The position numbers were made by a program, and so were the translations under genes. From Halosolutus gelatinilyticus (GTDB lineage Archaea; Halobacteriota; Halobacteria; Halobacteriales; Natrialbaceae), in the NCBI RefSeq assembly GCF_023028105.1, contig NZ_CP095491.1:3658001-3722000 (forward strand): a DNA stretch of 64,000 nucleotides, read 5' to 3'. Below the pieces are notes generated by a model. The model saw nothing but the letters and a program-made list of their open reading frames with translations, was not told where the DNA came from and did not search any database. Below are positions 15,225 through 24,334 of this stretch, in pieces; the stretch's first letter is position 1, and each line of letters starts with the position of its first letter.

Positions 15225-15513
15225 TGTATTCGTTCACCATCATTTTTCTGGCATCGAAGAACGCGATCGTTGAGAGCCGATGACGTGGATAGTGTCGGAC
15301 CGTGACAAGATAAAAAACGGCCTTGCGAGTCACGGGTAACGACACCGCCCCCAGCGATAGTCGAGCGGCCTCGCGGCGAACCAGCGATTCGGTCGAACGA
15401 CGGCCGCTCGTGACCGATCGCTGAACGTATCGAGTTACGTGAAATCTAGCGCCGACAGACAGTCGACATAACCACGCACGGGATTTTTGGAACGGTACTG
15501 CGTATCGCGTGGT
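15225..15513. promoter_or_regulatory. Divergent promoter region, ferredoxin / HiPIP
   Basis: About 290 bases. A T-rich tract reading leftward (TTTTTTATCTTG, 15303-15316) is a possible TATA/BRE area for the ferredoxin gene. No obvious shared operator was found by eye. Confidence 0.4.
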
Positions 15514-16125
15514 ATGGAAGACGGCAAGCCGCACGAGTCGCGGCGCCGATTTCTTCGCCTCACGGGTTGTGGATCGCTGATCGGACTCGCCGGATGCATG
15601 AACTTAAACGAGAACGCCGCGGGTCCCGCCAGTCAGCCGCGGGAGGGCCTTCCTGCCGACTGGTGTCTCGACGATCTGAGCGACTCCGTGCCGGAGAGCG
15701 AGGCGAACGCGGTGAGCATCGACGGGGTTGAACGAAAGCCCGAAGGCGAACTCCTGTCAAAGCAGGACGCCGCGTACCAGTGCGGCCCCTCCGACGGCCA
15801 GCAGTGTGGCAACTGTACCTTCTTCATCGACGATCGCTCGGGCAATGGATGGGGTGCGTGCACCGAAGTCGCCGGCGAGATCCGATCGGTCGACTGGTGC
15901 GGACTCTGGGCACCGAGAATGGAGATCCAGGAAGGGCAGTCCGAGGGTGGAACCGCGGGAGACGAGAGCGCCGACGAGGAGGAAGGTGGCGGCGGTAACG
16001 AAAGCGACGGTGGAAACGAAAGTGAGGGCGGAAACGAAAGCGGCGGCGAGGACAACCAGAGCGATGGCGGTGGGGGTGACGGCGGCGGGAGCGACGGCGG
16101 AAACGAAAGCGATGGAGGGAACTAA
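15514..16125 (+). CDS. High-potential iron-sulfur protein (HiPIP) lipoprotein
   Basis: A 203-residue exported protein. SRRRFLRLTG is a Tat motif and LAGC (Cys28) a lipobox. The fold signature is C-x2-C (CGNC), 14 residues, C, 12 residues, C, ending VDWCGLWAPR: the four-cysteine pattern of HiPIP, a soluble one-electron carrier. After the domain comes an unusually long Asp/Glu, then Gly-Gly-Asn-Glu-Ser repeat tail rich in N-x-S sites. The ATG at 15514 directly precedes the Tat region. It is divergent from the four-cluster ferredoxin gene. Confidence 0.85.
   Translation: MEDGKPHESRRRFLRLTGCGSLIGLAGCMNLNENAAGPASQPREGLPADWCLDDLSDSVPESEANAVSIDGVERKPEGELLSKQDAAYQCGPSDGQQCGNCTFFIDDRSGNGWGACTEVAGEIRSVDWCGLWAPRMEIQEGQSEGGTAGDESADEEEGGGGNESDGGNESEGGNESGGEDNQSDGGGGDGGGSDGGNESDGGN
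15988..16122 (+). repeat. Tandem GGNES-coding low-complexity repeat
   Basis: The 3' end of the HiPIP gene repeats GGTGGAAACGAAAGC-like units with variations, giving GGNESDGGNESEGGNES in the protein. The repeat is in frame, so it is coding rather than a CRISPR or insertion. Confidence 0.8.
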
Positions 16126-17767: not shown

Positions 17768-17803
17768 ATGAATATCACTGGCCCCGACGTTTCACATGAC
17801 TGA
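17768..17803 (+). CDS. Possible 11-residue upstream ORF
   Basis: ATG at 17768 opens a frame MNITGPDVSHD that stops at 17801-17803, six bases inside the J-domain coding sequence and in another frame. Its position at the predicted transcription start would make it a leaderless mini-ORF. It could be chance; the alternative is a 28-base leader. Confidence 0.3.
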   Translation: MNITGPDVSHD

Positions 17804-19127
17804 GGATTTTTACGACCTTCTCGAGATTCCGTCCGACGCCCCCCAAGACGACGTCAAGGAAGCCTACCGGGAGAAAGTCCGGATCTACCACCCCGACCTG
17901 AACGACGACGATCGGGCCCAAGCGCAGTTCACCGCCGTGAAAAAGGCCTACGACATCCTCGGCGATCCCGTCGAGCGACAGGCGTACGATCGGCTGGGCC
18001 ACGAAGACTACGTCGCGAAGCGAACGAGCGGATTACCCTCGCCGGAGGTCTGGAAAACGGACGACGAGTCGCGGTCGTCGGCCGACGATTCCGAGGCGTC
18101 GACGGAGTCGCGGTCGAGAACCGGTTCGGCGGGATCGGCGACCGCGTCGTCGACCGCCTCGGCGGCGTCGAGTACGGCCGGCGCGGCCGGAACTGTCGGC
18201 TCGACTGCGGCGGGTGCGACCGCCTCGTCGACCGGAACCAGTAGCGGCGCCGCGACGGCGACGAACGGCACCACCGCATCAGGGACGAACGCTAGCAGCG
18301 CATCCGGGACGAACGCCAGCACCGCGACCGCGAACGGTCGCAACGGGAGTTCCGATCCCGACGGAACGACCCGCGAGACCGCACACGCCGGCGGGACGGC
18401 GGCCGATCGCCGACCCGGAACCGGATCGGAGACCGGCCCCGATCGATTCGGCGACACCGCCGTCGTCCGGTGGTGGCGCCGGCAGAACTTCGCCTGGCCG
18501 CTGATCTGGCTCTCGGTGCTTACGTACCTCGCGGGGCTCGTCCACTACGGCGTCCGGAACGACGACGCCCTCGCGACGCTATGGACCGAACTCGTTGCGA
18601 TCGGCGCCGCGCCCGAGGGGCTGTGGACGGCCGTGTCGACCGATCGGTACGGTCTGCAACCGCTGACCGACTTCGTGATGACCGCCGAACCCGTGGCGCC
18701 GCCCGCCGAACCCGTGCAGTGGTACGGCGCGCTCGCGGGCGTCGTCGCGGCCGCCCTCGCGGTACTCCTCCTCGTGCGGGTCGTCTACCGCCGGGAGACG
18801 TGGGGCCCCGTCACGATCGACGAGACGATCGTCGCCGCGGTCGCGATCGGCGCGACGACGACCGTCCTCGGCGGGCCGCTGCTCGCCGGCGCGATCCTCA
18901 TGCCGATGCTGTTCGGCGTCATCGTCACCCGGACGCGCCAGTTGCCCGGCTGGTCGCCGTCGTACCTCTACGTGGCGCTGGTGTCGGTGCCGGCGATTGC
19001 GTTGGTCGGCGGCACCGTCGGCGTCGCGATCCTTCCGATCGAGTTCCTCGCGTTCGTCGTCCTCCCGATCGTCGGTGGCCTGGGGCTGCCGCTGCGAGCG
19101 AGCATTCGGAAACGATTCGGCCGCTAG
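17796..19127 (+). CDS. Membrane protein with N-terminal J domain
   Basis: A 443-residue protein. Residues 4-66 are a J domain with the invariant HPD (32-34) that stimulates Hsp70 ATPase. Residues about 85-215 are a Ser/Thr/Ala/Gly linker with little else. The C-terminal half has about six hydrophobic segments (from 'WPLIWLSVLTYLAGLV' onward). It lacks the Gly/Phe and zinc-finger regions of true DnaJ, so it is a J-domain membrane protein that may recruit DnaK to the membrane. The promoter is the TATA at 17741. Confidence 0.82.
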   Translation: MTEDFYDLLEIPSDAPQDDVKEAYREKVRIYHPDLNDDDRAQAQFTAVKKAYDILGDPVERQAYDRLGHEDYVAKRTSGLPSPEVWKTDDESRSSADDSEASTESRSRTGSAGSATASSTASAASSTAGAAGTVGSTAAGATASSTGTSSGAATATNGTTASGTNASSASGTNASTATANGRNGSSDPDGTTRETAHAGGTAADRRPGTGSETGPDRFGDTAVVRWWRRQNFAWPLIWLSVLTYLAGLVHYGVRNDDALATLWTELVAIGAAPEGLWTAVSTDRYGLQPLTDFVMTAEPVAPPAEPVQWYGALAGVVAAALAVLLLVRVVYRRETWGPVTIDETIVAAVAIGATTTVLGGPLLAGAILMPMLFGVIVTRTRQLPGWSPSYLYVALVSVPAIALVGGTVGVAILPIEFLAFVVLPIVGGLGLPLRASIRKRFGR

Positions 19128-19172
19128 TAACGCCTGTTTTCGAGTCGTACGCTGCTTGAGTAGATACGGTCG

Positions 19173-19245
19173 ATACCACTACGAAAGTCCCACCCACGGT
19201 GGCATCCTGGCTAACCGGCACGAGTGGGACTTTTGTAGTGTTTCC
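19173..19245. repeat. Structured intergenic element, copy 1
   Basis: Arms at 19178-19193 (ACTACGAAAGTCCCAC) and 19224-19239 (GTGGGACTTTTGTAGT) pair over 16 bases with one G-T wobble. The 30-base interior holds a CCACC-CAC-GGTGG mini-hairpin overlapping the arm and then CCTGGCTAACCGG. The interior matches copy 2 at 24.2 kb in about 27 of 33 positions, while the outer arms differ in sequence but keep pairing. It sits between convergent genes. It may be a structured RNA, a bidirectional terminator or a small mobile repeat. Confidence 0.7.
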
Positions 19246-19300
19246 AATCAATTCGGAGTATTTCGAGCGGTATCGGAATACAACCCTGACCGCGATCGAA

Positions 19301-19960
19301 TTATCCGACCATCGTCGCGACACCTTTCGTCTGGCGGTAATCGCTCGCCAGGATCGCCTCCAGCCGCGAGACCAGGCGATCGCGATCGGTGTCGACCCAG
19401 CCTGCGGGGGTTTTGATGGGGACGACCATGAATCCGCGGCCGCGGATCTCGGTGGCGTGGAGGCGGTCCATGTCGAGGTCGAGTCGGCCGCGCTGGGTCG
19501 TGTACTCCCGGAGGACGTGGTCGGTCGCTCGCTCGCCGATGGGCAGCAGGATGTGGGCGTTGATCGCCCGCAACTCGGCGTCGAAGTAGCGTTCGCACTC
19601 CGCGTACTCCTCCTCGGTCGGCGATCGGCCGCCAGGCAGGCTGCACATGTGGATGTAGCTCCAGTAACAGTTGTCGAGTTCGGGCCGGTCCAGCGGTCCG
19701 CTCGCGAACCCGACCTCGCGACAGACCTCGTCGATCGCGCGCCCCGAGTCGCTTCCCGTGAAGGGAATGCCGGTCGCGGCGCCCCCGTGGACGCCCGGGT
19801 GGTCGCCGATGACGTGGAAGTCCGCGTTGGCGTCACCGTAGCCGAAGGCGGCGACGTGATCGTCGGGATCGCTCCGATCGTACGGCGGTCGCATACCGAA
19901 CGGATTGCTCGTCCTGTCGGTGACGTTCTTCACGGGAGTTGGAAGGGGATCGGATCCCAT
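19301..19960 (-). CDS. Uracil-DNA glycosylase family protein
   Basis: A 219-residue protein of the UDG superfamily. VIGDHPGVHGGAATGIPFTGS corresponds to the water-activating loop (GDxPG) and uracil pocket; ILLPIGERATDHVL and VVPIKTPAGWV occupy the positions of the later motifs. It probably removes uracil or deaminated bases from DNA. The ATG at 19960 precedes the conserved-looking TDRTSNPFGMRPP start. It is transcribed after nikR on the same strand, with 30 bases between them. Confidence 0.82.
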   Translation of the reverse strand: MGSDPLPTPVKNVTDRTSNPFGMRPPYDRSDPDDHVAAFGYGDANADFHVIGDHPGVHGGAATGIPFTGSDSGRAIDEVCREVGFASGPLDRPELDNCYWSYIHMCSLPGGRSPTEEEYAECERYFDAELRAINAHILLPIGERATDHVLREYTTQRGRLDLDMDRLHATEIRGRGFMVVPIKTPAGWVDTDRDRLVSRLEAILASDYRQTKGVATMVG

Positions 19961-24066: not shown

Positions 24067-24192
24067 GTGTCCTCTCCTGTAGGACGAAGTCTCGTGCGAT
24101 GTTAAACCTTTGCGGGGCTCTCGATCGGTACGTTCCGGTTGCGAACGTCTACGGAACTCCCTCCGTCCGCGCGATGCGTAGAGAAGCGGACG

Positions 24193-24288
24193 GGAACACC
24201 GCGAACGCCAGCCCCGTTCAGTTCCACCCGCGGTGGTAGCCGGGCCAACCGGTACGGACGAGGATGAAAGGCGATTTCGTGGTGTTCC
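24193..24288. repeat. Structured intergenic element, copy 2
   Basis: Arms at 24193-24205 (GGAACACCGCGAA) and 24276-24288 (TTCGTGGTGTTCC) pair over 13 bases with one wobble, and CGCC/GGCG extends the stem past a two-base bulge. The interior (24223-24256) carries the CCACC-CGC-GGTGG and CCGG-GCCAA-CCGG hairpins shared with copy 1 at 19.2 kb. Arms differ between the copies yet stay complementary, which is covariation. It lies between the gshA stop and the winged-helix gene. Confidence 0.7.
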
Positions 24289-24334
24289 TACTCGCGTCAG
24301 TACTGAAACCGTAGAACGCGACTCGAACTGTGCG

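Follow-up and report, generated by a model that had tools for sequence, protein, structure and literature searches.

The window analysed in this work is a stretch of 64,000 nucleotides of the genome of Halosolutus gelatinilyticus (contig NZ_CP095491.1, positions 3,658,001 to 3,722,000). The feature under study lies between the stop codons of two convergent genes, a DnaJ-domain gene on its left (17796-19127, + strand) and a uracil-DNA-glycosylase-like gene on its right (19301-19960, - strand), both named by reading of their translations. The stem-loop reported in a preliminary description at 19173-19245 is real; its arms CACTACGAAAGTCCCAC and GTGGGACTTTTGTAGTG pair, with an RNA minimum free energy (MFE) of -38.4 kcal/mol and a z-score of -4.0. 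A second copy (MFE -50.6, z -3.0) is present in the same window (Table 1), where the core CCACCCNCGGTGGNNNCCNGGCYAACCGG occurs twice against an expectation of zero from shuffled sequence. The outer arms are not the same in the two copies but, as had been claimed, still pair: within the shared end CAC(T/C)(A/G)CGAA one pair has changed in a compensatory way (T-A to C-G) and two others by wobble, with pairing retained, and a stretch of copy 2 is missing from both arms of copy 1. The two mini-hairpins described inside the stem appear in the MFE structure of copy 2 but not in that of copy 1; among 71 copies the first (CCACC/GGTGG) is well preserved, whereas the second is frequently unpaired, its outer pair being C.A in 33 and C-G in 18 of them. 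Elsewhere in the window, positions 15487-16125 encode a small protein that is predicted to be secreted and on inspection looks iron-sulfur-like; its Gly/Asn/Glu-rich tail is encoded by 18-bp repeats.

Table 1. Coordinates of the two copies and their parts within the window.
Feature	Position	Strand	Remarks
Copy 1, inferred whole element, ~155 bp	19131..19285	+	short derivative without both side hairpins
Copy 1, inner inverted repeats and middle hairpin	19175..19242	+	covariance model score 68.8 bits, E 3e-13
Copy 1, asymmetric conserved core CCACCCACGGTGGCATCCTGGCTAACCGG	19190..19218	+	gives orientation
Copy 2, inferred whole element, ~208 bp	24127..24334	+	ends inferred
Copy 2, inner inverted repeats and middle hairpin	24195..24286	+	covariance model score 77.4 bits, E 2e-15
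Copy 2, conserved core CCACCCGCGGTGGTAGCCGGGCCAACCGG	24224..24252	+	

The two copies of the window belong to a much larger repeat family. A pattern search for the core in the same genome gave six copies (none for the reversed pattern), and the covariance model built from these six located about 35 distinct places in the chromosome. Paired inner repeats (AACACCACGAAAGCCCCT) delimit about 48 candidate end-paired copies of 68-573 bp, the longest few of which are doubtful, with most copies measuring 68-292 bp between the inner repeats. In full-length copies the inner inverted repeats are ~265-285 bp apart and enclose three hairpins in the order left, middle (the stem-loop described above) and right; the right hairpin is related to the left in inverted form, and neighbouring hairpins join at AGCCCCT/AGGGGCT. 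The window copies consist of the middle hairpin alone, both side hairpins being absent. No pairing from flank to flank was found within single elements, and the motif CGATCG seen in the flanks was rejected as a feature of the element, since it proved to occur generally in this genome. A search of the genome for an autonomous copy, which would have a gene between its inner repeats, found none, nor was there any candidate gene call for an internal transposase in its copies or beside the unpaired ends examined. All inner-repeat matches are on the 3.9-Mb chromosome (C1), with none on C2-C4 (~0.85 Mb together).

The distribution across haloarchaea is wide and very uneven: of 292 Halobacteria sampled, 63 had matches (30 of 78 genera), as did 20 of 61 relatives, and two genomes of the same genus, G001 and G002, had zero and seven matches, respectively. 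Further copies exist in many haloarchaeal genomes, and the preliminary description was right to suspect similar haloarchaeal intergenic sequences. The exact end sequence occurs in the genera Natronococcus, Halopiger, Natribaculum, Natronolimnohabitans, Natronorubrum, Haloterrigena and Natrinema, among others. In two genomes of other families (L043 in G054 and L048 in G043) GAAAGCCCC and the middle-hairpin arms are kept, and the outer parts of the inner repeats differ (AGAGCCAG, ACACGCAG) but still pair, which by sequence suggests subfamilies. No match was found in phages, viral contigs gave four exact 17-mer matches, which is about the chance number, and plasmid matches were partial (module C only of the long query), so that viral or plasmid carriage was rejected. 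Half-elements composed of one middle-hairpin arm and the right hairpin are carried by plasmids of halophilic archaeon DL31, Halobacterium sp. DL1 and Natrinema thermotolerans (L235, L236 and L238, ~560-830), apparently at the same place near a gene for a DNA-binding or OB-fold protein; in DL31 a hypothetical protein is annotated across the half-element.

Neither of the window insertions is present in G001, in G002 or in other genomes of the family. The convergent genes flanking copy 1 are ~0-10 bp apart in relatives versus 173 bp here, and the site of copy 2 measures ~10-17 bp in relatives versus ~224 bp here. At both sites the inserted stretch exceeds the inner-repeat unit by ~100-120 bp, and extra flank (~70-95 bp) is also seen at sites L071 and L079, because the true ends of the element are further out. 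Of 37 scored copies in this genome 36 avoid predicted genes; the one exception seems to come from the start codon chosen by the simple gene caller, with no clear interruption of a gene. Insertions between divergent genes (14 of the 37), in convergent pairs (7) and between tandem genes are all present. For most copies the distance to a stop codon is 40-70 bp and that to a start codon 80-190 bp, and the element's own outer part explains most of this spacing.

The outer ends were revealed by young copies in other genomes. Genome G259 carries near-identical copies, two of them 99.7% identical over 377 bp and 97% identical to a third, which have 375-377 bp in common and no flank in common, and which end in GGTACTGTTTAGAT and AGTAGTGTTTAGAT, ~42 bp outside the inner repeat. 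By its sequence, GGTACTGTTTAGAT is an IS6-family terminus. Among 20 loci in three f5 genomes, exact 8-bp direct repeats (for instance TCGAACCG and TCAGCGAC) flank 10 of the 18 scorable copies (L197, L198, L199, L204, L205, L207, L209, L210, L212 and L213), a count made somewhat generous by the shift of +/-2 bp allowed at the ends, where an exact 8-bp match is expected by chance at ~25 in 65,536 per pair of ends. In 154 Natrialbaceae flanks GTGTTCGGAT (with up to two mismatches) peaks 35-39 bp beyond the inner repeat, at 17 versus ~1 per 5-bp bin elsewhere; thus the flanks are the outer part of the element, which is poorly conserved apart from its tip. Both ends can be seen in the Halopiger copy L129, which is flanked by an exact target site duplication (TSD), TTCGACCT. 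Exact TSDs among Natrialbaceae copies numbered 3 versus 0.7 by chance, which is weak taken alone. In the H. gelatinilyticus genome the copies showed no significant excess of target duplications (8 of 37 versus 7.3 by chance), none at the inner repeat, nor any enrichment 25-90 bp outwards, the best single case being L071 with seven of eight bases.

Comparison with the young copies moves the limits of copy 1 outwards from 19173 and 19245 to those of Table 1, to within a few bases. Its right end GGTTGTATTCCGAT (reverse complement) begins exactly 43 bp beyond the inner repeat, where the Natrialbaceae copies have IS6-like ends, and its left end CGCCTGTTTTCGAG is a weaker match to such a terminus; the left GGTACGTTCCGG and right GCACAGTTCGAG (reverse complement) of copy 2 also resemble IS6-type ends. 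The terminal repeats of both window copies are degenerate, and no target duplication was readable at the inferred ends of copy 1. Directly after copy 1, at 19286-19293, the sequence CTGACCGC is like what relatives have around the stop codon of their DnaJ-like gene (CTGATCGC, CTGACC), and to judge by this likeness it is perhaps the remaining half of a target duplication.

The feature is very probably a copy of a non-autonomous, protein-free haloarchaeal transposable element, a MITE with IS6-family termini. Its copies are dispersed and intergenic, have sharp boundaries and arms that covary, lack a transposase gene and are too short to code for one; IS6-type terminal repeats occur in the young copies and in the Natrialbaceae flank peak, 8-bp duplications flank young copies in the f5 genomes and in Natrialbaceae examples, and both window sites carry lineage-specific insertions. 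The design is that of a nested quasi-palindrome, in which the IS6 termini are outermost and a conserved pair of inner inverted repeats encloses one to three hairpins. Presumably an IS6-family DDE transposase recognises the termini in trans and copies the element, which would generate the 8-bp target duplication, and copies would survive where the insertion falls between genes. The window copies would be short, older derivatives after loss of the two side hairpins, plausibly because the AGCCCCT repeats at the bases of the hairpins recombined.

IS6 elements are known to produce 8-bp repeats, and the family has recorded archaeal members as well as MITEs (PMC7986276, PMC6807381); one of these accounts argues that archaeal members should be kept out of the IS6/IS26 family proper (PMC6807381). 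In the genomes studied here autonomous IS6 elements of 697-698 bp have ends such as GGTCGTGTTTAGTT and GGTAGTGTTCAGAT, three of them with 8-bp TSDs. H. gelatinilyticus (G000) has one intact IS6 element (L225, 697 bp; transposase match G000:C2:98529-99098, 211 aa), which is assigned to IS6 by a match to NF033587 at 175.8 bits and whose termini are matched partially by those of the hairpin copies in the genome. This element is on C2, and an even spread would put about 8-9 hairpin copies on C2-C4. The number of IS6 transposases does not track the copy number of the element: G001 has 17 IS6 transposase matches and no hairpin-model match, and G023 has 20 hairpin-model matches and a weak transposase remnant only. 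In Haloquadratum, MITEs have moved though no functional transposase was found in the genome (PMC3119063).

The small structured RNA implied by the preliminary description, that is a non-coding RNA, or a regulatory element at the RNA level, whose fold is maintained by selection, has the strong fold and the covariation in its favour. In the outer stem of 71 distinct middle hairpins 93.1% of the cells of 14 pairs are paired (shuffle maximum 87.2%), and double changes occur at 12 of the 14 pairs, in 65 cells against a shuffle maximum of 31, which places the covariation above chance as had been anticipated. Side-hairpin arms pair at 6.29 of 10 positions within an element versus 4.06 between elements, a contrast weakened and not inflated by some spurious extracted stretches. 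The arms of the element thus change together. Signs of a strand-specific RNA were not found. A hand count of core orientation relative to tandem genes gave 4 sense and 8 antisense, that is no bias. Outer-stem mismatches were G.T in 40 cases, 15 of them from one pair, versus A.C in 18, numbers that fail to tell RNA from DNA. Searches of Rfam gave nothing over the gathering score for the element (the sole above-threshold match of the window is a tRNA) and sub-threshold chance miRNA matches only for a full-length copy. Convergent, divergent and tandem contexts are all in use, and mobility is evident from the near-identical copies with target duplications. Since the arms are inverted repeats and hairpin modules of mobile DNA with IS6-type ends, much compensation is expected anyway; matched ends are kept in inverted-repeat elements because one enzyme must read both, and quasi-palindrome correction, by copying between arms, would also give matched changes. 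That the arms change together is thus no demonstration of selection on RNA, and the covariation follows at least partly from the palindromic build. An RNA reading of the hairpin is unlikely, and we put the chance of a selected RNA fold as very low. It is rather doubtful, if somewhat less so, that the nested hairpins and asymmetric core act as a functional RNA, cruciform or single-stranded DNA that brings in the transposase or a host factor, or else directs insertion to sites between genes; if so, an IS6-type MITE would employ folded DNA for transposition.

A small mobile repeat (SMR) in the Haloquadratum sense, with ends unrelated to transposons, no TSD and an unknown mobiliser, was first suggested by the copies of the H. 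gelatinilyticus genome, which alone show inner repeats unrelated to a transposon and no detectable duplication. This was dropped once the young copies elsewhere revealed outer ends of IS6 type with 8-bp duplications, and it is now a highly improbable reading. An element resembling REPINs or PATEs, mobilised in single-stranded form by a hairpin-recognising IS200/IS605 TnpA or RAYT, would likewise be short, palindromic, intergenic and present in many copies. PF01797 (Y1 transposase) is, however, absent from H. gelatinilyticus, the genome richest in copies, and from G023, and the terminal inverted repeats and 8-bp duplications of the young copies contradict such a mechanism, as IS605-type elements and PATEs have neither (PMC3119063). 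We regard it as extremely improbable. Local intergenic hairpins serving as transcription terminators or barriers can practically be dismissed, for although copies are often 40-60 bp past stop codons and 7 are in convergent pairs, 14 of 37 are between divergent genes, homology breaks off sharply at the element ends, and archaeal terminators are chiefly U-rich tracts.

A recurrent haloarchaeal intergenic hairpin is in this way explained as mobile DNA, and the search model and boundaries help to avoid annotating copies as small RNAs or hypothetical genes. The many natural copies of differing age provide material on the spread and decay of MITEs in archaea. The element is ordinary in kind and notable for its spread and nested-hairpin design; the maintained nested hairpins are its most interesting part.

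Beyond one mention of MITEHarch3, no literature naming the present family was found. MITEHarch3 and MITEBth2 are IS6-family MITEs in ISfinder (PMC6807381), and the lengths given for two IS6 MITEs are 227 and 336 bp (PMC7986276). Both are, like the present element, IS6-type MITEs of similar length with no transposase, and MITEHarch3, going by its name, has a haloarchaeal host; the passages concerned mention neither a nested-hairpin build nor a multi-genus distribution (PMC6807381, PMC7986276). The present element would be a new IS6-type MITE by a comparison of description and not of interior sequence, and may be identical to the catalogued MITEHarch3. The ISH14/ISH15/ISH29-type IS6 elements of haloarchaea (696-697 bp, coding for 211 aa, mostly with an 8-bp TSD; PMC6807381, Table 5), matched by 697-bp copies with ~211-aa transposases in element-bearing genomes, share with it terminal repeats of the type GG(T/C)NNTGTT(T/C)AGAT and 8-bp duplications, but code for a transposase, whereas its interior is unrelated and non-coding. 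The SMRs and PATEs of Haloquadratum walsbyi are also short, non-coding, repeated and haloarchaeal, but SMRs are not flanked by target duplications and their ends are not related to transposons, and PATEs lack terminal inverted repeats (PMC3119063). Bacterial REPIN/RAYT systems are similarly palindromic, intergenic and dispersed; unlike them, the present element is found in its richest genomes without a Y1 transposase, and its young copies are flanked by target duplications.
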